A stretch of DNA of 59,458 nucleotides from positions 88,164 to 147,621 of the forward strand of contig PLND01000034.1 in the NCBI GenBank assembly GCA_003141675.1, written 5' to 3'. Shown piece by piece: positions 19,013 through 28,934 of this stretch (position 1 is its first letter; every line of letters starts with the position of its first letter). The notes below the pieces were generated by a model, which was given only the letters and a program-made list of their open reading frames with translations, was not told the origin of the DNA and did not search any database. A program made the translations under genes and the position numbers. The DNA comes from Anaerolineae bacterium (GTDB lineage: Bacteria > Chloroflexota > Anaerolineae > Anaerolineales > RBG-16-64-43).

Positions 19013-19352
19013 TGGTCATTCCGAGGTGCTCTCAAGCCCCAAGGAATCGGTAATGCGAACTTGTCGTGTCATTCCGAGGGGCTTTCAGGCCCCGTGGAAT
19101 CGGTAATGAGATAATGGAGAAACACACTCCGTATACCAAGTCCGCGATTCCTCACCCCGCAAAGCGGGGTTCGGAATGACTCCTGCGGATTGAGTCCGCG
19201 ATTCCTCACCCCCGAAGATCACGGGGGGTTCCCCCGCTCTACGAGGGCAGGCGGAATGACATCTGCAGACCCCGAGTCCATGATTCCTCACTCCGCTTCC
19301 CCCGCTCCGCGAGGGCAAGCGCGAGGGCATACGCGAGGGCAGACGGAATGAC
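19013..19352. repeat. Array of GTCATTCCGA...GAATCG palindromic repeats
   Basis: Five diverged units fill the gap before the aromatic operon: two direct (starting near 19016 and 19070) and three inverted (ending GGAATGAC near 19181, 19260 and 19352). Each has a conserved GTCATTCCGA end and a (G)GAATCGCGGA-like other end around a variable GC-rich palindrome. No gene is present between 18939 and 19431; short open frames here are repeat translations. Similar units lie at 21905-22134. Confidence 0.75.
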
Positions 19353-19431
19353 ATCCGGTGCGAGGATATGGAGAAATTTGCTCGGCTGACTTCATAGGCG
19401 GGAGGTTACACCGGGGCGGCAAGTACCGGGC

Positions 19432-19460
19432 TTGACCGATCTTTGCAGTTATGCTAATAT
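19432..19460 (+). promoter_or_regulatory. Promoter of aromatic operon
   Basis: TTGACC (19432-19437), a 17-nt spacer, and TAATAT (19455-19460) with the extended element TGC directly before it. Transcription should start near 19467, only about 3 nt before the leader-gene ATG at 19470. Confidence 0.85.
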
Positions 19461-19469
19461 CGCCCCACG

Positions 19470-19541
19470 ATGAAAGGTTATTGGTCCTTCTTTTACGCGT
19501 ATTTTTACGGCGCCCCAAAGGCAGCCGTCGCTTCGCGTTAA
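19470..19541 (+). CDS. Aromatic-amino-acid leader peptide (attenuator)
   Basis: A 23-codon gene, ATG 19470 to TAA 19539-19541. Codons 4-13 read YWSFFYAYFY: four Tyr, three Phe and one Trp in ten consecutive positions, covering all three aromatic end products. In coding DNA such a run is wildly improbable by chance. Known leader peptides (PheL, TrpL, HisL) work the same way: ribosome stalling at scarce charged tRNA decides between an antiterminator and a terminator. The gene begins ~3 nt from the predicted transcript start and has no ribosome binding site, so it would be translated from a leaderless mRNA. Its last codons overlap the antiterminator arm. It precedes the aroH-pheA fusion by 100 nt. 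Confidence 0.88.
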   Translation: MKGYWSFFYAYFYGAPKAAVASR

Positions 19542-19603
19542 GAAGGGTTAGAAAGTTCCGAGAGAGGAACCCACCGCGAGGCCAAACGGCCTCGCGGTTT
19601 TTT
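19507..19603 (+). promoter_or_regulatory. Transcription attenuator: pause hairpin, antiterminator, terminator
   Basis: Three mutually constrained structures are visible. First, a pause hairpin: 19507-19514 pairs with 19520-19528 (one bulged A, loop CCAAA), just after the aromatic codons. Second, an antiterminator: GCTTCGCG (19530-19537, inside the leader gene's last codons) can pair over 8 bp with CGCGAGGC (19575-19582). Third, the terminator, which needs the same 19575-19582 segment. A ribosome stalled on the Tyr/Trp/Phe codons leaves 19530-19537 free and blocks termination. A ribosome at the stop codon covers it and allows termination. A small GTTCC/GGAAC hairpin (19555-19570) lies between the arms. 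Confidence 0.82.
19573..19603 (+). terminator. Attenuator terminator hairpin
   Basis: A perfect 11-bp stem (19573-19583 with 19588-19598), AAAC loop and six consecutive T (19598-19603). It lies 38 nt before the aroH-pheA ATG, inside the operon leader, so it must be conditionally bypassed. Confidence 0.92.
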
Positions 19604-19641
19604 ATTCCCGCCAGAGGCGGGATACCGGAGGAGGAAACATC

Positions 19642-20877
19642 ATGCCCGTTCGAGGAATTCGCGGCGCCACGACATCGCCCAATAATTCGGCAGAGCATGT
19701 GCTCGCGCGGACCCGGGAACTGTTGATGGAGATACACAAACGCAACGGGTTTGAACCGGCCGATCTGGCGGCGATTTTATTTACCACGACGATCGACCTG
19801 GACGCGGCCTATCCTGCAACAGCCGCTCGGGAATTGGGGTGGCGCGATACGGCGACGCTCTGCTCGCATGAGATCGACGTTCCCGGCGGACTGCCGCGCT
19901 GCATCCGCGTACTGATCCTATGGAACACCGAACGTCCGGTCACGGAAATCCATCACGTGTACCTGTATGAGGCGGAATCACTCCGCCCGGACCGGGCGGA
20001 GCTGCAACCGGCTAAACAGCACCCGGCGCGGGTCTATTCGCTGCCGGCCTCGATTGCCTTTCAAGGGGAACACGGCGCTTTTTCCGAAGAGGCGCTTCTG
20101 ATGGGGTTGAGCGGCGAGATTGATCGTATTCCCTGCCGGACCTTCGCGGAAATTTTCCTGGCGGTATCCTCCGGCAGGGCGGAAGCCGGATTGCTTCCGG
20201 TGGAAAATTCCACTACCGGATCGATCCACACCTCATACGACCTGCTGCTGGAAAACGACCTGCACGTCGTCGGAGAGTTCATACTTCCGGTTCGCCATTG
20301 TGCGATGCTGCCTCCGGGGGTGGAAGTGGAATCGGTGCGCCAGGTGATCAGCCAAACCCAAGCGCTGGAACAGTGCTCGCACTGGATCGCATCCCAGAAC
20401 TGGGAGCCGGTACCGGTGCACGACACCGCGGGGGCAGCCAGAATCCTGGCGCAGGAGAAACGCCCGGATCGCGCGGCGATCGCCAGCGAAACGGCCGCCC
20501 GCCTGTACGGGTTGAATATTATCGCCCGGTCCATCCAGGACGTGCAGGCGAACTACACCCGCTTCCTGCTGCTGTCCAAAGAAAGTGCACCGATCGCAAA
20601 ACCCGCCAAAACCTCCCTGATCTTTGCCACGCGTCACAAACCCGGCGCATTGCATTCCTGCCTGGACGAGTTGGCCAAACGCGGCATAAACCTGACTAAG
20701 ATCGAATCCCGTCCGGATCGCAAGAAGCCGTGGCATTATCTGTTCTATCTGGATTTCGAAGGGGATGCAGCCGAACCGAAGGTGGTCGAGGCGCTTGAAG
20801 CGCTGGCCACCCACACCGATTTCTTACGCCGGTTGGGATCGTATCCCACCCGGACACTTGGAGAGGGAGAGGAGTAG
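19642..20877 (+). CDS. pheA: Fused AroH-type chorismate mutase / prephenate dehydratase
   Basis: A 411-residue bifunctional enzyme taking chorismate to phenylpyruvate. Residues 1-~120 are an AroH-class (trimeric, Bacillus-type) chorismate mutase: VRGIRGATT with catalytic Arg7, [14 protein letters not shown] with the second Arg, and [14 protein letters not shown] with the Tyr. Residues ~135-310 are prephenate dehydratase ([32 protein letters not shown]). Residues ~325-400 are an ACT domain with [24 protein letters not shown], the Phe-binding feedback site. Proteobacterial P-proteins use the unrelated AroQ mutase instead. A GGAGGAGG ribosome binding site precedes the ATG. It is the first structural gene after the attenuator, and aroF follows 2 nt later. 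Confidence 0.92.
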
Positions 20878-20879
20878 CC

Positions 20880-21890
20880 ATGGTCATCGTCATGCAGGAT
20901 CACGCCAATCAAGAGGATATTGAAGAAGCGATCCATCAGGTAAAGGCCATGGGGTACGGGGTGAATCTCTCCCAGGGGGATGAGCGGACCGTCATCGGGA
21001 TTCTGGGTGACGAGCGTGCGCTGGATTGGGAGCATTTGGAGCTCCTGCCGGGCGTGGAACATGTCGTTCGCATCCTCAAACCCTACAAGCTGGCTTCGCG
21101 CGAATCGCGCCCGGAAAGAACCATCGTGCGGATCGGCTCGGTCGCGATCGGCGGAAACGAGATCGTTATCATCGCCGGTCCCTGCGCGGTCGAAAGTCGG
21201 GAACAGATCCTCGAAACGGCCAAGGCCGTAAAGAAGGCGGGCGCGCACATGTTGCGCGGCGGTGCGTTCAAGCCGAGATCCTCCCCGTATGCATTCCAGG
21301 GAATGGCCGAGGAAGGTTTAAAGTTGCTGGCCGAGGCGCGCGAGGCGACCGGATTACCGGTGGTCACCGAGGTCATGGCTCCCGACCAGTTGGAGATGGT
21401 GATCCAATACTCCGACATGCTCCAGATCGGGGCGCGCAACATGCAGAATTATCCGCTCCTGCAGGCGGCGGGGAAAAGCGGCCATCCGGTTCTCCTCAAG
21501 CGGGGCAACAGCGCCACGGTCGAGGAATGGCTTATGGCCGCCGAGTACCTTCTATCCAACGGGAATACTCGCGTCGTGCTTTGCGAACGCGGGATCCGCA
21601 CCTTCGAGACCGCAACGCGCAATACCACCGATATTAATGCGATCCCGGTGGTCAAACATCTCTCGCATTTGCCGGTTCTGGTCGATCCGAGCCATTCCAC
21701 CGGGAGGGACGAATATATAGAATCGATCTCGCGGGCAGCTATTGCAGCGGGTGCCGATGGGCTGATTGTGGAAGTGCATCCTCATCCGGAAGCGGCGCTT
21801 TCCGACGGGCCGCAAAGCCTCACGCCGGACGCTTTCAGCGAGGTGGTGAACCAGGTAAGGCGGATCGCCGCCGTAATCGGCCGAAGCTGA
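20880..21890 (+). CDS. aroF: DAHP synthase, Thermotoga type
   Basis: A 336-residue 3-deoxy-7-phosphoheptulonate synthase, the first step of the shikimate pathway (PEP + erythrose 4-phosphate). Residues 1-~70 form a ferredoxin-like (ACT-like) regulatory domain and the rest is the class I-beta TIM barrel: [58 protein letters not shown] and [13 protein letters not shown]. Order and spacing match the Thermotoga maritima enzyme, which is inhibited by Tyr and Phe through its N-terminal domain. A GAGAGGAG site precedes the ATG. With pheA it forms the attenuator-proximal pair. Confidence 0.95.
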
Positions 21891-21904: not shown

Positions 21905-22134
21905 GTCATTTCGAACCCCCGTGACCTTCGGGGGTGAAGAATCGCGGACTCGTATTTGATGTGTCATTCCGAACCCCAGTGACTTTCGGGGGTGAGGAAT
22001 CGCGGAATTAGTTTATGGAGCGCATTTCTCCTTCATCGTGTCACCGATTCCTCCCTTCGCTGCGCTCAGCCCCGCCCCGGCTTCGCCGGGCGAGGCCGGG
22101 GAGCAGGCGAGGTCTAAAGGCCTCTCGGAATGAC
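21905..22134. repeat. Three GTCATT(C/T)CGA palindromic repeats
   Basis: Two direct units (21905-21951 and 21962-22008) each contain a palindromic core (CCCCCGTGACCTTCGGGGG in the first). An inverted, longer third unit ends GGAATGAC at 22134 and contains the CCCGGCTTCGCCGGG hairpin. They lie between aroF and tyrA in the operon. The hairpins could affect read-through or mRNA stability. A TAAAAT box (22202-22207) downstream may give tyrA its own weak promoter. Confidence 0.7.
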
Positions 22135-22272
22135 ATAATAAGTGTGGGCCACCGGACCCTCCTTCGAAAACCTCTTCTATACGGCCGGCTTTCGAATGGC
22201 GTAAAATCCACTGTTGCGGAGAATTCATTATTCCAATCCAAAGGAAACTTGAGAGGCACGGGAAAGGGAGTC

Positions 22273-23169
22273 ATGCCGCAGGATAAAGAACTTCCTTTTA
22301 CGCTTGACCAAGCCATTATTGGAGTTGTGGGCTTGGGTCTGATGGGTGGGTCGCTCGCGCTCGCATTAACCGGAAAATGCCGTTGGAGAATCGGACTGGA
22401 TTCCGATCCGGTGGCGGAAAAGGCGGCGCTAAAGAAAAAAGCCGTCGATGAATTGGCACCCCACCTCCCAGGCTTGGTCGAAAAAGCCGATCTGATTGTC
22501 CTTGCCGCTCCGGTGCGGACGATCCTGGCGTTATTAAGGGAACTGGCCAATATTCACCCTCTTACCAACGGAGTGCGCGTAGTCATCGATATTGGGTCAA
22601 CCAAGAGCGATATTGTGAAGGCGATGGAGGGTTTGGGGACTGGTTATGCCCCGATTGGAGGACATCCGATCTGCGGACGCGAGGTGCAAGGGATCGGCTT
22701 TGCGGATCCACTGCTTTACAAGGATGCGCCTTTTGTTTTAACTCCAATCCCCAATGGTTCGTCGCGGGCGCTTGCGGGTGGTCGCAGCCTGGTCGCGACG
22801 CTGGGTGCACGCCCCGTTGAACTAAGCGCGGCCGAGCACGACAACCTCGTTGCCAGCACAAGCCATCTTCCGCATCTGGTAGCGGTGGCCCTGGCGCAAA
22901 CCGCAAGCCGGCTGCCGTCGGCCGCGGCGCTCGTTGGACCGGGTTTCCGGGATACGACGCGCCTGGCGGCCTCGAATTTAGAAATGATGACAGACATCCT
23001 GCTCACCAACCGCGAGCATGTGCTCGAGGCGCTCGAGGAATACATCGCCCGGCTGGAGGCGCTCACCCAGCGGATTCGCGAAGGCGACGAAGCGGGCTTG
23101 AAACTTTTGCTGGCCGAAGGCCGCCGGGGAAGGCAGGAGCTGCTGGAATTGTCCAAAGGCGAAAAGTGA
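22273..23169 (+). CDS. tyrA: Prephenate/arogenate dehydrogenase
   Basis: A 298-residue NAD(P)-dependent dehydrogenase of the tyrosine branch. The dinucleotide motif is GVVGLGLMGGSLA (about 16-28). Further landmarks are DIGSTKSDIV, GGHPICGREVQGI and the catalytic-His region SHLPHLVAVALA. There is no fused ACT or mutase domain. I chose the ATG at 22273 because an AAGGGAG site lies just upstream; the frame stays open further upstream only through repeat DNA. Its stop overlaps the aroA GTG by 4 nt (GTGA). Whether it prefers prephenate or arogenate cannot be read from the sequence alone. Confidence 0.92.
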   Translation: MPQDKELPFTLDQAIIGVVGLGLMGGSLALALTGKCRWRIGLDSDPVAEKAALKKKAVDELAPHLPGLVEKADLIVLAAPVRTILALLRELANIHPLTNGVRVVIDIGSTKSDIVKAMEGLGTGYAPIGGHPICGREVQGIGFADPLLYKDAPFVLTPIPNGSSRALAGGRSLVATLGARPVELSAAEHDNLVASTSHLPHLVAVALAQTASRLPSAAALVGPGFRDTTRLAASNLEMMTDILLTNREHVLEALEEYIARLEALTQRIREGDEAGLKLLLAEGRRGRQELLELSKGEK

Positions 23170-24485
23170 GACTCGTTTCCCGAAATACTAGCGCTTTGCA
23201 TGGATCCGTCCGCCTTCCAGGGGATAAATCCATCTCCCATCGAGCAGCAATCCTGGCCGCGACGGCCGACGGTCGCAGCCGCATCGACGGGTTTCTCCGC
23301 GCCGGGGTCACCCAGGTCATGCTGGATTCGCTGGCCGCCGCAGGAGTGGAATGGAGTTGGGAAAAAGAAACCCTCGTGGTGGAGGGAAACGGCCGGAGCG
23401 GGTTTCAAACCGGGCCGCAGCCACTGTATTGCGGCAACTCGGCGACCACCTTTCGATTGCTCAGCGGAATGCTGGCCGGTCGCCCGGAGTGGCGGTCGGA
23501 CGCGGCCGGCGGCGAATTCATCCTGGACGGATCCGATCAATTGCGCCGTCGGCCAATGCTCCGCGTGATCGAACCGCTCCGGGCGATGGGCGCCGTCATC
23601 CGTTCCATGCAGCAGCCGGATTGTCCGCCGCTGGGAATTACACCATCGGAAATATCAGGGATCGAGTATTCCATGCCGGTCGCATCCGCCCAGGTGAAAT
23701 CCGCCATCCTGCTGGCGGGGCTTGCCGCTTCCGGATCGACGCTGGTGCAGGAACCTTCTCCCTCGCGCGATCATACCGAGCGGCTTCTACGCGCCCTGGG
23801 GGTCCGATTGGACGAGGCGCCTTGCCGCGTGCGAGTGTTCCCGATCGGACGGCCGCTTCCACCGCTGGAGATCCGCATCGCCGGGGATTTTTCCTCAGCG
23901 GCGTTCCCTCTGGTGGCGGCGTTGATCGTCCCTGGATCGGAGATCATACTGCGAGACGTCGGGTTGAACCCACGGCGGACGGGCCTGCTTGCGGTTTTGC
24001 GCCGAATGGGCGCCGACGTCGCGGAGATCGACCGATCGGAAACGGCCGGTGAACCGCGGGGCGATCTGAGAGTGCGTGCGGGTCCTCTATCCTCCACCGT
24101 TGTGGAGGGTACCGAGGTTGTGGATATGATCGACGAATTCCCGGTATTCGCGGTCGCGGCGATTCGCGCCGAAGGGATCACCATCATTCAAAACGCCGCG
24201 GAACTTCGAAATAAGGAATCCGACCGGATCTCGATGCTGGCCGCTGAACTGCGCAAGATTGGGGTTGCGGTAGAGGAAACGCCCGACGGATTTTCCATCG
24301 AGGGTCCTGTGGAAATCCGCGGAGGGTCCGTGAATTCCCACGGGGATCACCGTCTGGCGATGGCCATGGCTGTGGCCGGACTGGTTTCGAAAACCCCGCT
24401 TGAGATCGAAGGCGCCGAGTGCGTTTCGGAATCATTTCCGAATTTTGCGAGTCTGATGAATTCCCTGGGAGCGCAGATGGCATGA
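23166..24485 (+). CDS. aroA: EPSP synthase with Ala at the glyphosate-site Gly
   Basis: A 439-residue 5-enolpyruvylshikimate-3-phosphate synthase. The family landmarks LPGDKSISHRA, SAQVKSAILLAG, RDHTERLLRALG and the KESDR motif (ELRNKESDRISM) are present. It starts at GTG 23166, overlapping tyrA. The active-site loop reads YCGNSATTFRLLSGM. At the position of E. coli Gly96 it has Ala, as in the class II CP4 enzyme, and at the position of Pro101 it has Leu. In characterised enzymes an Ala at this Gly weakens glyphosate binding, so this enzyme may be naturally glyphosate-insensitive (inference). Its stop overlaps aroE by 4 nt. Confidence 0.94.
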   Translation: MRLVSRNTSALHGSVRLPGDKSISHRAAILAATADGRSRIDGFLRAGVTQVMLDSLAAAGVEWSWEKETLVVEGNGRSGFQTGPQPLYCGNSATTFRLLSGMLAGRPEWRSDAAGGEFILDGSDQLRRRPMLRVIEPLRAMGAVIRSMQQPDCPPLGITPSEISGIEYSMPVASAQVKSAILLAGLAASGSTLVQEPSPSRDHTERLLRALGVRLDEAPCRVRVFPIGRPLPPLEIRIAGDFSSAAFPLVAALIVPGSEIILRDVGLNPRRTGLLAVLRRMGADVAEIDRSETAGEPRGDLRVRAGPLSSTVVEGTEVVDMIDEFPVFAVAAIRAEGITIIQNAAELRNKESDRISMLAAELRKIGVAVEETPDGFSIEGPVEIRGGSVNSHGDHRLAMAMAVAGLVSKTPLEIEGAECVSESFPNFASLMNSLGAQMA

Positions 24486-25312
24486 AAACGGTTTTGATCG
24501 GTTGGCCCCTGGCTCACAGCATTTCCCCCGCGATGCACAATGCGGCCTTCCATGTGCTGGGAATGCCGGGCGAATATTCGCTGCTTCCGGTCGAGCGGGA
24601 GGAAAACCTCCGCGGGGTATTGGCGCGTTTGAAATCCGACCCGGATTGGAAAGGCGCAAACGTGACCGTTCCATACAAAGAAAAGATCATCACGCATCTT
24701 CGGAAACTGGAAGGCGCGGCCGCGCGTTTGAAGGCCGTGAACACCATCGCACGAAAGGGGAAGGAGCTGATCGGGCATAATACCGACATGCCCGGCTTTC
24801 TGGCCGATCTGGATCGCAACGGATTCGATTTCCGCGGGAGGAATGTCGTCGTAATCGGTTCCGGAGGGGCGGCGCGGGCGGTCGTGCGGGGCTTGGTCGA
24901 AAGTCTGTGCCGGATCTCTCTGATCGCGGTCATCCTCGAGCAGGCCGAAACCCTGGCGCGCGACCTTGGAGACGGGCGGGTGGAAGTAATCTCCTGGAGC
25001 GAGCCATCGCTTACCGATCGGACCCGGTCCGCGAGCCTTGTTGTAAACACATCGCCGGTCGGAATGTGGCCGAGCATCGAAGCATCTCCCTGGCCGGAAA
25101 GCGTTCCATTCCCGGAAAAAGCCGGCATATATGATGTTGTCTATAACCCAATCGAAACCCGGTTCCTGCGGGATGCAAAGTCGCGCGGATTGAAAGCCGT
25201 AGGAGGACTGGGGATGCTGGTTGAGCAGGGTGCACTTGCGTTTGAACTTTGGACCGGCGTGCATGCGCCGCGCGATGTGATGCTGCAGGCAGCCCAGGCG
25301 GCGCTTGGATAG
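24482..25312 (+). CDS. aroE: Shikimate dehydrogenase
   Basis: A 276-residue NADP-dependent enzyme reducing 3-dehydroshikimate to shikimate. GWPLAHSISPAMHNAAF binds shikimate, NVTVPYKEKI contains the catalytic Lys and GHNTDMPGF the catalytic Asp. The dinucleotide-binding loop is VVIGSGGAARAVVRGL (family GAGGAARA, here GSGGAARA). The ATG lies in the ATGA overlap with aroA. The C-terminus has the usual GLGMLVEQGALAFELWTG. Its length is normal. Confidence 0.94.
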   Translation: MKTVLIGWPLAHSISPAMHNAAFHVLGMPGEYSLLPVEREENLRGVLARLKSDPDWKGANVTVPYKEKIITHLRKLEGAAARLKAVNTIARKGKELIGHNTDMPGFLADLDRNGFDFRGRNVVVIGSGGAARAVVRGLVESLCRISLIAVILEQAETLARDLGDGRVEVISWSEPSLTDRTRSASLVVNTSPVGMWPSIEASPWPESVPFPEKAGIYDVVYNPIETRFLRDAKSRGLKAVGGLGMLVEQGALAFELWTGVHAPRDVMLQAAQAALG

Positions 25313-25325
25313 ATAGGGAGGCGGC

Positions 25326-26510
25326 ATGATAAGGCTGATTACGGCAGGAGAGTCGCATGGCCCGGCGCTGGTAGCCGTCCTGGAAGGAATTCCCGCGGGG
25401 TTGCCGCTCCGGGCGGAAGATCTTCGGCCGGATTTAATCCGGCGGCAAGGCGGATCCATAACGCAGACCGCCTACCGCGGGGCGAGCCCGAGGATGAAAA
25501 TCGAACGAGACCAGGCGACCATTCTTGCCGGGGTGATGAATGGGAAAACAACCGGCGCGCCGATCGCGCTCATGGTTGAAAACCTCGATCATGAGAAATG
25601 GAAAGGGCGGGCGGTGGAAGCGATGACCGTTCCCCGTCCCGGGCACGCCGACCTCGCGGCGGCGATCAAATATGGATACGATGATCTGCGTACAGGTTTG
25701 GAACGCGCCAGTGCGCGCGAAACCGCCGCCCGTGTGGCTGCTTGCTCCGTTTGCAGAAAATTCCTCGACGCGCTGGGAGTCCGCGTCGGGAGTTACGTCA
25801 TTCGGATCGGTACGGCCGCGGCCGACCCGGCCTCGCTGCCGATCGAAGAACGATTTACGCGGGCGGAAGAATCTCCGTTGCGTTGCCCGGATCCGGCGGG
25901 GAGCGAACGGATGCAGGCGGAGATCGACCGCGCGATGAAGGCCGGCGATACGCTCGGGGGGGTATTCGAGGTGGTCGCGCTGGGTGTACCGCCGGGATTG
26001 GGGGGTTTGGGCAATTGGGACCGAAGGATGAACTCGCGTTTGGGCGCTGCCCTCTTCGGGATTCCCGCCATCAAAGGAGTCGAATTCGGGGATGGATTCG
26101 CGCTGGCGGCGCTGCCCGGAACGCAAGCCCAGGATCCGATCCGGCGCGAGGGCGATAAAATCGTCCGTCCTTCCAATCATGCCGGAGGAATCGAAGCGGG
26201 TATCACCAACGGTCAACCGATCGTAGTCCGCGCCGCCATGAAGCCGATTGCCACCACGATCGCTTCGCAGGAATCGGTCGACCTCTCCGGGGGCGGGAAA
26301 ACGGAGACGCACTATGAGCGGTCGGATTTTTGCGCGGTGCCACGCGCGGCGGTGGTGGGCGAGGGAATGGTCTGCCTGGTGCTTGCGGATGCGGTGATGG
26401 AAAAATGCGGCGGGGATTCCCTCGACGAAGTCCGCAACCGTTTTGACCGCCTTCCGCGCGGAACACTCTCCGACTTTCATCTCTCCCCCGGTCCAAAGAA
26501 TTTCTGGTAA
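25326..26510 (+). CDS. aroC: Chorismate synthase
   Basis: A 394-residue FMN-dependent enzyme converting EPSP to chorismate. Landmarks are GESHGPALVAVLEGIPAG at the N-terminus, GRPGHAD-equivalent VPRPGHADLAAAIKYGYDD, RASARETAARVAA, and the flavin-binding region HAGGIEAGITNGQPIVVRAA (family GGISNG, here GITNG). RCDxCAVPR-like SDFCAVPRAAVVGEGM is near the end. An AGGGAGG site precedes the ATG, 13 nt after aroE. The tail is about 20 residues beyond the conserved core. Confidence 0.95.
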   Translation: MIRLITAGESHGPALVAVLEGIPAGLPLRAEDLRPDLIRRQGGSITQTAYRGASPRMKIERDQATILAGVMNGKTTGAPIALMVENLDHEKWKGRAVEAMTVPRPGHADLAAAIKYGYDDLRTGLERASARETAARVAACSVCRKFLDALGVRVGSYVIRIGTAAADPASLPIEERFTRAEESPLRCPDPAGSERMQAEIDRAMKAGDTLGGVFEVVALGVPPGLGGLGNWDRRMNSRLGAALFGIPAIKGVEFGDGFALAALPGTQAQDPIRREGDKIVRPSNHAGGIEAGITNGQPIVVRAAMKPIATTIASQESVDLSGGGKTETHYERSDFCAVPRAAVVGEGMVCLVLADAVMEKCGGDSLDEVRNRFDRLPRGTLSDFHLSPGPKNFW

Positions 26511-26754: not shown

Positions 26755-28323
26755 ATGAATCTATATATCTATGGTCCGCCGGGATGCGGAAAAACCACGA
26801 TCGGCATGCTGCTTGCCGAACGCATGGGCTGGCATTTCACCGATACCGATAAGATCATTGAAAACGAAGCGGGGATGCCGATCACGGAAATCTTTCTTCA
26901 GAAGGGGGAAGCCGATTTTCGCCTGCGGGAAAAAGCGCTGCTTTCGAATCTGGTAAAAACCACCCGGACGGTGGTCGCCCTCGGCGGAGGAACGCTGGTG
27001 GATGACGAGAACCGCGCCTTGGTTGAATCTTCCGGGGCGGTGGTATGCCTGATGTGCAATCCCGAAACCATCCTGGAGCGCGTGGGCAACGAGTTGAACG
27101 CCCGACCGCTCCTCGCGGGATCCGGTCCGTTGGAACGCCTCAAAGCCCTTCTGGCAAAACGCGCCGCGCTCTACGCCTCCTTCCCGCTTACCCTCGATAC
27201 CACCACGCTCGCGCCGGAAGACGTCGTCCGAAAGGTTCAACGCCTTTCGGGCGTGTTCCGCCTGGCGGCGATGGGGGGCGGGTACGACGTAATCATCAAC
27301 CGCGGGATGCTGCACCATTTGCGCGCCGAATTGGAGGATCGCAAGCTCGGCGCGCCGTTTGTGATTATCAGCGACGACCACGTCGCGCCGATTTACACCC
27401 GGCCGATTGAGGAAACCCTGGCGCCGATGGGAGCCGTTTCCTCAATTGTATTAAAAGCCGGCGAAGCGTCGAAAAACCTTCGAACACTCGAGTCGATTTA
27501 TTCCGGTCTGTTCAACAGCAAAATGGAACGCCGCGGGACCCTGTTGGCCCTGGGTGGAGGTGTGGTGACGGACATTGCCGGATTTGCGGCCGCCACTTAC
27601 CTGCGCGGGATCCCCTGGGTTGCGCTTCCGACCAGTCTGCTGGGTATGGTCGACGCCGCGATCGGCGGAAAAACCGCCGTGGACCTCCCGCAGGGGAAAA
27701 ACCTCATTGGTTCGTTTTATCCGCCGGCTATGGTCCTTGCGGATTTAGACACCCTGGCTACGTTGCCTCCCCAGGAATTGCGGACGGGGATGGCCGAGGT
27801 GGTCAAATCCGCGATGATCGGCGATTCCAAGCTGCTGGGAATGATTGAAGCTTTGAACGGCGAGGTTGCCCCGGAAAAGCTCGACGGGATTGTCCGCCGG
27901 TCGGCCCGGGTGAAAATCCGGGTGGTGGAAGAAGATCCCTACGAGCGGCGCGGACCCCGCGAAGCACTGAATTTCGGCCACACGATCGGCCACGCCGTCG
28001 AAACCTGGTCGAACTATGAAATCCCGCACGGCGACGCGGTGGCGATCGGAATGGCGGCCGAATCGAAACTGTCGGAGAGAATCGGCATCGCCGAACACGG
28101 CCTTTCCGACAAACTCTGCGCCTTGTTGATTAATCTGGGATTACCCGTGCGCTGCGAGGCGCCCGTGGACAAGATCCTCGAGCTGATGGCCGCGGATAAG
28201 AAACGACGCGGCGGGCGGATTAAATGGGCTTTACCGATCTCGGCGGGAAAAGTGCGCGTCGGTTTGGAAGTACCGGATGAAGACGTCCTGCAGTCGCTAA
28301 AATCCATCGGATGCCGGGATTGA
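26755..28323 (+). CDS. aroKB: Fused shikimate kinase / 3-dehydroquinate synthase
   Basis: A 522-residue bifunctional enzyme. Residues 1-~165 are shikimate kinase: P-loop GPPGCGKTTIG, the Asp pair in TDTDKIIE, RLREKALL and VALGGGTLV. Residues ~172-522 are 3-dehydroquinate synthase: GEASKNLRTLE, LALGGGVVTDIAGFAAATYLRG, PTSLLGMVDAAIGGKT, and the metal-binding set NFGHTIGHAVE and HGDAVAIGM. The two steps are not consecutive in the pathway (second and fifth). It is separated from aroC by 244 bp with a TACAAT box at 26641-26646 but no clear -35, so a separate promoter is possible. Confidence 0.95.
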   Translation: MNLYIYGPPGCGKTTIGMLLAERMGWHFTDTDKIIENEAGMPITEIFLQKGEADFRLREKALLSNLVKTTRTVVALGGGTLVDDENRALVESSGAVVCLMCNPETILERVGNELNARPLLAGSGPLERLKALLAKRAALYASFPLTLDTTTLAPEDVVRKVQRLSGVFRLAAMGGGYDVIINRGMLHHLRAELEDRKLGAPFVIISDDHVAPIYTRPIEETLAPMGAVSSIVLKAGEASKNLRTLESIYSGLFNSKMERRGTLLALGGGVVTDIAGFAAATYLRGIPWVALPTSLLGMVDAAIGGKTAVDLPQGKNLIGSFYPPAMVLADLDTLATLPPQELRTGMAEVVKSAMIGDSKLLGMIEALNGEVAPEKLDGIVRRSARVKIRVVEEDPYERRGPREALNFGHTIGHAVETWSNYEIPHGDAVAIGMAAESKLSERIGIAEHGLSDKLCALLINLGLPVRCEAPVDKILELMAADKKRRGGRIKWALPISAGKVRVGLEVPDEDVLQSLKSIGCRD

Positions 28324-28415
28324 AATTCGAACGGGCGTGGATCGCGGCTTGATTCCAGAGGATGAAATCGGAGACCCGGCGGATGGAGGCGGGGATGCAA
28401 ACCGGAGGAGGAACG

Positions 28416-28895
28416 ATGACCAAAATCTTGCTCTTGCATGGACCCAATCTCAACCTGCTCGGCGAGCGCGAGCCGGAAGTGTACGGAAACGTGACGTTGG
28501 CGGAGATCGATGCGCGGATCACGGCGCTGGCGAAAGGGCAGGGGGCGGAAATCCGAATCGTGCAATCCAATAGCGAAGGCGGCATCATCGACGCGATCCA
28601 GGCGGCCCGGCAATGGGCGGACGGATTGATGATCAATCCCGGCGCATTCACCCATTACTCGCTGGCGATCCGGGATGCGATTGCCGCCGTGCGCATACCG
28701 GCGGTGGAAGTCCATATCAGCAACGTATTCGCCCGCGAGGAGTTCCGCCACCGGTCGGTGATCGCTCCGGTCTGCATCGGTTCCATCTGCGGGTTTGGCG
28801 CACGCAGTTATGAGTTGGGCTGGATCGCGCTAACGGGATATCTTCAGGAGCAGGGAGAAAAAGTTAAGTTGCACGGCGGGAATGAGTTAACCTAA
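28416..28895 (+). CDS. aroQ: 3-Dehydroquinate dehydratase, type II
   Basis: A 159-residue type II enzyme (dodecameric in characterised members) making 3-dehydroshikimate. [19 protein letters not shown] contains the catalytic Tyr, [13 protein letters not shown] and [17 protein letters not shown] follow, and [18 protein letters not shown] carries the catalytic Arg/His loop. The ATG at 28416 has a GGAGGAGG site 4 nt upstream; frame upstream of it is spurious. It completes the set of shikimate enzymes in this operon. No type I AroD is present. Confidence 0.95.
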
Positions 28896-28903
28896 CGCCG
28901 AGG

Positions 28904-28934
28904 TTGTGAAAATTATCTCAAGGAATGGTATAAT
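28904..28934 (+). promoter_or_regulatory. Promoter upstream of DUF1015 gene
   Basis: A perfect TATAAT (28929-28934) with TGG directly before it, and a TTGTGA -35 (28904-28909) at 19 nt. It lies just after the aroQ stop and should drive the DUF1015 gene. Confidence 0.65.

Follow-up and report, generated by a model that had tools for sequence, protein, structure and literature searches.

A probable ribosome-mediated attenuator with an aromatic leader peptide ahead of the shikimate operon in Anaerolineae

Described attenuators and the present locus

Leader-peptide attenuation is a classical mechanism. In the enterobacterial pheL-pheA system (RF01859), a Shine-Dalgarno-led leader precedes a single-gene target. 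The locus described here resembles that system in its Phe-rich leader, in the 1:2 / 2:3 / 3:4 logic of its RNA and in its chorismate mutase-prephenate dehydratase target, but the enterobacterial leader is devoted to Phe only.

A Phe-Tyr-Phe leader attenuator has been characterized at the DAHP synthase operon aroR-aroF of C. glutamicum (Neshat 2014; PMC11802643; leader, PMC4046766). There, a short aromatic leader likewise lies before a DAHP synthase operon and Phe-limited ribosome stalling raises transcription (PMC11802643); this actinobacterial leader, which we compare by its description, has three aromatic codons instead of eight and is reported to answer Phe but not Tyr. For shikimate genes, aromatic uORF motifs have been predicted (PMC6429828), as has uORFC-13-1 upstream of aroF in Acholeplasma (PMC8632094). 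The predicted uORFs, too, carry Phe or Tyr codons ahead of the shikimate or aroF gene, with an adjacent terminator for uORFC-13-1, but where organisms are named they are other ones, and the accessible parts of the two papers describe no comparably long run of Y, F and W. Leaderless leader-peptide attenuators have been reported from Actinobacteria, for ilvBNC of C. glutamicum (PMC11857589) and in S. lividans (PMC8079986); they share with our locus the lack of a Shine-Dalgarno site and the set of terminator, antiterminator and anti-antiterminator, but serve branched-chain amino acids, Trp and other amino acids and not an aromatic shikimate leader.

The DNA analyzed, here called the window, is a stretch of 59,458 nucleotides from an Anaerolineae bacterium of the phylum Chloroflexota (GCA_003141675.1, contig PLND01000034.1, positions 88,164 to 147,621). 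We propose, with a probability of about 0.9, that its aro operon is controlled by a ribosome-mediated transcription attenuator with an aromatic leader peptide. A sequence-only reading had regarded such an element as not yet characterized in Chloroflexota and, as a reader of all three aromatic amino acids, ahead of any full aro operon. Leader attenuators of Chloroflexota or Anaerolineae were indeed not found in the literature searched, with most subscription journals outside its scope, but the novelty is narrowed because C. glutamicum aroR-aroF has been characterized and aromatic uORFs at shikimate and aroF genes were predicted earlier.

The leader region and the aro operon

The elements of a leader-peptide attenuator were found together upstream of aroH-pheA (Table 1): a short ORF rich in end-product codons and predicted to be translated (8 of 10 aromatic; relatives at 93 loci, the window included), an intrinsic terminator between this ORF and the first structural gene, an antiterminator that excludes the terminator, and leader codons or an upstream arm that could tie up the antiterminator arm in a 1:2 pairing. 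Direct reading places the ATG at 19470 and the stop TAA at 19539-19541, and the 23-codon gene and its YWSFFYAYFY run at codons 4-13 are present just as they had been described from the sequence.

Table 1. Features of the leader region and the aro operon; coordinates are those of the window
Feature	Coordinates	Strand	Basis or remark
Promoter, sigma-70-like: -35 TTGACC, 17-nt spacer, -10 TAATAT	19432..19460	+	consensus scan; pattern recurs in relatives
Leader peptide gene, 23 codons, product MKGYWSFFYAYFYGAPKAAVASR	19470..19541	+	read from sequence and related leaders at 92 other loci
Regulatory codon run TAT TGG TCC TTC TTT TAC GCG TAT TTT TAC (Y W S F F Y A Y F Y)	19479..19508	+	
Segment 1: part of codon run predicted to pair with stop region (anti-antiterminator 5' arm)	19485..19499	+	leader fold; coevolution z -7.6
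ACGGCGCC at run end	19507..19514	+	pairs with 19520-19528 (fold)
Segment 2: antiterminator 5' arm GCCGTCGCTTCGCG, within leader ORF	19524..19537	+	13-bp helix; coevolution with terminator z -9.2
3' arm of 1:2 anti-antiterminator, includes stop codon, overlaps segment 2	19534..19547	+	fold
Intrinsic terminator: 11-bp stem, CAAA loop, T run	19573..19603	+	sequence; stem covariation in 23 relatives
Segment 3: antiterminator 3' partner (terminator 5' arm, loop, first 3'-arm bases)	19575..19590	+	fold
aroH-pheA fusion (chorismate mutase, prephenate dehydratase, ACT)	19642..20877	+	NCBIfam
DAHP synthase, DAHP_synth_Bsub type	20880..21890	+	NCBIfam
tyrA, prephenate dehydrogenase	22015..23169	+	NCBIfam
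aroA	23166..24485	+	NCBIfam
aroE	24419..25312	+	NCBIfam; coordinates are ORF limits, start uncertain
aroC	25326..26510	+	NCBIfam
aroK-aroB fusion	26755..28323	+	NCBIfam
aroQ, type II 3-dehydroquinate dehydratase, last aro gene	28362..28895	+	NCBIfam

The promoter pattern TTGAC-N17-TANNNT recurs just ahead of the leader start in relatives. From its position in the window we infer a transcription start about 2-4 nt ahead of the ATG or at the ATG itself, and, since only 9 nt separate the -10 box from the ATG, translation would apparently proceed from a nearly leaderless transcript. A promoter was recognizable in 73 leaders, with a gap between -10 box and start codon of 6-11 nt in 30 and of 16-56 nt in the others, the short spacing being common in the order to which the window belongs. 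The intergenic region 5' of the promoter (19130-19370) is occupied by imperfect repeats (gattcctcac..., cggaatgaca...).

The terminator is perfect, as the earlier reading had it; its stem (19573-19598) is followed by TTTTTA, and its folding energy is -23.6 kcal/mol. The 8-bp antiterminator pairing proposed there (19530-19537 with 19575-19582) exists, with one G-U pair, as part of a longer helix: GCCGT at 19524-19528 also pairs with ACGGC at 19586-19590, so that the full antiterminator comprises 13 bp (-22.9 kcal/mol) and is predicted to be about as stable as the terminator. In the predicted fold of the ribosome-free RNA, a hairpin at the end of the run keeps the antiterminator arm occupied, and the pairing of codon run and stop region would complete the classical 1:2 / 2:3 / 3:4 logic. 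Compared with its dinucleotide shuffles, the leader RNA folds better by 5.4 SD.

NCBIfam assignments confirmed the aroH-pheA fusion and the full aro operon claimed earlier. Read in one direction, the operon encodes all seven shikimate steps from DAHP to chorismate and the Phe and Tyr branch enzymes, and genes of the Trp branch are absent from it. The family match of tyrA begins near residue 100 of the ORF, and its real start is probably near 22270. We assume that read-through at the attenuator spans the whole operon; the gap of about 380 nt between the DAHP synthase gene and the likely tyrA start counts against this. The gene after aroQ has its own promoter-like site at 28906-28934.

The small size of the region bears on whether a T-box or metabolite riboswitch, and not a translated leader, controls the operon. 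T-boxes do occur in this genome, but only about 100 nt separate the leader start from the terminator, and no Rfam family reached its gathering score in the window leader; in the leaders of ten relatives, none did so except an unrelated cobalamin riboswitch. The T-box family (RF00230) was absent from the Rfam matches of the window and the ten relatives and from a permissive scan of 19400-19660. We therefore give this explanation practically no credence. The best leader-type match of the permissive search was RF01859 Phe_leader (window 19469-19603), whose 17.5 bits (E 1.4) lie far below the gathering score of 55.

Conservation, coevolution and folding of the leaders

A looser scan gathered 93 leaders (the window and 92 other loci) from Anaerolineae and other Chloroflexota classes, preceding aroH-pheA, aroH, DAHP synthase or tyrA genes. 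Nearly all aroH-pheA loci of the class have, about 80-290 nt upstream, an ORF in which 5-9 of 10 codons are aromatic and, after it, a T-tailed hairpin. In the window's own family, two genomes (L137, L138) have leaders with ..RAFFFYAYFYGYRQAAVASR and ..GFFFYAYFYGAPKAAVASR and the same terminator stem as the window, and in order-level relatives the element precedes the first gene of the operon, be it aroH or DAHP synthase. When DAHP synthase was searched for across the phylum and 60 upstream regions were extracted, leaders were also seen outside the class, among them RFYTYFFYF, FWFYYF, YAYWFYF and YYFAYYFYFYFF; wherever the orientation of the extracted region was known, every leader call was on the sense strand. 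Leaders of this kind were not seen before non-fused pheA copies in several genomes of the same order (L146, L153-L156), which we take not to head the aro operon. Several order-level relatives (G300, G304, G307, G310, G312, G330) carry tandem pairs of DAHP synthase genes.

Further observations concern leaders at the margins of this set. In other Chloroflexota classes, shorter leaders occur (L184 3707-3766, L185, L187, L221 3772-3837, L223 2856-2927, L190, L213) with motifs such as YYYLF..PEGPA, YWY SPPA, YYWY MTGV and YYWWT, the run lying at the very end of the peptide; they appear to differ in geometry, as the stalled-ribosome model predicts no antiterminator for them. Outside the named Chloroflexota, aromatic leaders with terminators precede aroH in Bacterium BMS3Bbin03 (L098 1172-1360), a DAHP-synthase-like ORF in an unclassified bacterium (L088 3846-3980) and an aroH-like ORF in a Neomarinimicrobiota MAG (L063 1553-1696), which may reflect misbinned contigs, transfer or convergence.

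When the 93 homologous leader regions were scanned strictly, with at least six aromatic residues in 10 codons and a T-tailed terminator demanded, 74 matched on the sense strand, and neither the antisense strand nor shuffled sequence gave a match. The aromatic character of the run is kept among relatives and its exact sequence is not; after the run, only 31 of 1064 residues (3%) are aromatic. Within the runs, TTT makes up 79% of Phe codons vs 33% in the downstream genes, and Tyr codons show little comparable bias.

Coevolution of the pairings was assessed by swap tests, in which the arm of each leader was paired with its own and with other leaders' partners, double-centred, with 20,000 permutations. 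The region after the run pairs with its own terminator arm 2.8 kcal/mol better than expected (z -9.2), and the codon run and stop region also match (z -7.6), in both cases with 0 of 20,000 permutations reaching the value. Such tests remove relatedness only partly, but control pairings of equal relatedness stayed near zero (run with terminator, z -2.0; upstream region with terminator, z -0.9; upstream region with stop region, z -2.1). RNAduplex row ranks alone, being dominated by terminator G+C, were dropped in favor of these tests. A MAFFT alignment of 23 order-level relatives gave covariation of 0.363 for the terminator (0.153 shuffled) and 0.193 for the antiterminator (0.125 shuffled), values reached by 0 of 500 shuffles each. 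In this alignment, 85% of cells retain the five antiterminator pairs made with the terminator loop and 46% the other eight; no more than 3-8 of the 23 relatives retain the outer pairs (columns 92-95), which MAFFT sets out of register in many. The sequence-only reading had suggested looking for compensatory changes and conserved codon runs in an alignment, and had named a lack of conserved runs or pairing partners in relatives as evidence against itself; runs and pairings were found conserved (93 leaders; 23 relatives), and this check did not refute its claim.

These data bear on two further explanations. The ORF might be a small expressed protein or a chance frame beside an ordinary terminator, and its coupling to the terminator is, after all, a prediction; the absence of antisense and shuffled calls, the coevolving alternative pairings and the confinement of the TTT preference to the run (0.79 vs 0.33 downstream) leave this explanation scarcely credible. 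Alternatively, the nascent peptide might arrest the ribosome in a TnaC-like manner, in answer to a free aromatic amino acid or other ligand and not to tRNA charging. Some leaders of other classes do share similar tails (SPPA, PEGPA, GMT), but it is the aromatic content and not the peptide sequence that is conserved, the tails vary by clade and coincide with the sequence encoding the antiterminator arm, and arrest by excess amino acid would, given this pairing logic, induce the biosynthetic genes at the wrong moment; we consider it very improbable. On the strength of conservation, coevolution and the Rfam scans, chance ORF, riboswitch, T-box and arrest peptide were all rejected.

Attenuation by a translating ribosome was modelled by masking the A-site codon plus 12 nt and folding the window leader for each position, all RNA states being thermodynamic predictions. 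While the terminator 3' arm is incomplete, the antiterminator has a probability of 0.94-0.99 when codons 3-5 or 9-14 occupy the A site, 0.58-0.66 for codons 2, 6-8, 15 and 16, 0.36 for codon 17, and zero from codon 18 onward and without a ribosome. Once the first bases of the 3' arm have been made, it is predicted to persist only for codons 10-14, among them Tyr 11, Phe 12 and Tyr 13. The completed terminator prevails at equilibrium (0.99), so control would be kinetic, as it is in known attenuator systems. Across the 93 leaders, capture of the terminator arm is 0.58 with the ribosome at the run end vs 0.22 at the stop, and 0.43 when the sequence after the run is shuffled (SD of the set mean 0.02). 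About 20 leaders, mostly from other classes, misfit the simple stalled-ribosome model, which predicts no antiterminator in several of them.

Conservation, coevolving alternative pairings and ribosome-position folding strongly support the ribosome-mediated attenuation first proposed for this shikimate operon; together with the elements themselves they form its basis, from which stalling and a response to amino acids would follow. RNA polymerase would begin at the leader ATG or immediately ahead of it, and a ribosome would load on the nearly leaderless RNA. When charged tRNA-Tyr or tRNA-Phe is scarce, and perhaps more weakly when charged tRNA-Trp is, the ribosome would slow at codons 4-13 and mask segment 1 and the run-end hairpin, leaving segment 2 free to pair with the emerging terminator 5' arm and loop; the terminator would then be blocked and the aro operon transcribed. 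When aromatic amino acids are plentiful, the ribosome would reach the stop codon and cover segment 2, and without a translating ribosome segment 1 and the run-end hairpin would sequester it; the terminator would form in either case.

Amino acids probably sensed and meaning of the leader

The runs of the 93 leaders contain 302 Y, 284 F and 46 W. Both F and Y are found in 90 of them, W in 42 and all three in 39, and W is absent from the runs of the two same-family genomes, the closest relatives of the window. The sequence-only reading had the leader report Phe, Tyr and Trp charging jointly: its Phe and Tyr part is well supported by these counts, and its Trp part is weakened by the rarer W, by the lack of Trp branch genes in the operon and by the separate T-box of the trp genes. 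In the window's genome, the trp operon (trpE, trpG, trpD, trpC, trpF and trpS, named by reading translations) follows a T-box upstream of trpE (L268 5369-5675, contig C37; RF00230, E 1.8e-19), whose 87.2 bits lie just below the Rfam gathering cut-off of 93; it has the canonical AGGGTGGCACCGCGG, the alignment puts a UGG at its specifier position, and a terminator follows. At the trpE loci of six relatives no T-box reached the gathering score, and a search of order-level relatives gave no convincing Trp-rich leader ahead of trpE.

Because Trp occurs in fewer than half of the runs, is missing from the nearest relatives and has its own T-box at the trp operon, we lean towards the same attenuator acting chiefly as a Phe and Tyr sensor, its Trp codon being incidental or minor. 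The position of W points the same way: in 27 of 42 runs it lies in the first third, where a stalled ribosome is predicted to secure the antiterminator less well. So does C. glutamicum aroR, which is reported to answer Phe and not Tyr despite having codons for both (PMC11802643). Against this, Trp recurs in many separate lineages, and a stall at codon 5 is still predicted to give the antiterminator (0.97) before the 3' arm is made; Trp is possible as a lesser input. A phylum-wide pan-aromatic attenuator, in which a single leader, leaderless in one large clade, would integrate the charging of tRNA-Tyr, tRNA-Phe and tRNA-Trp for the whole shikimate pathway, appears rather unlikely.

Our findings would extend leader-peptide attenuation to the Chloroflexota and to the whole of the common aromatic pathway. 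The dozens of diverged natural leaders can be compared to learn how a single leader balances several amino acids, and serve as well for questions about the TTT preference in the run and about how attenuation starts on leaderless RNA. A single genome would read tRNA charging in two ways for one pathway, with a T-box for trp and a leader peptide for aro.
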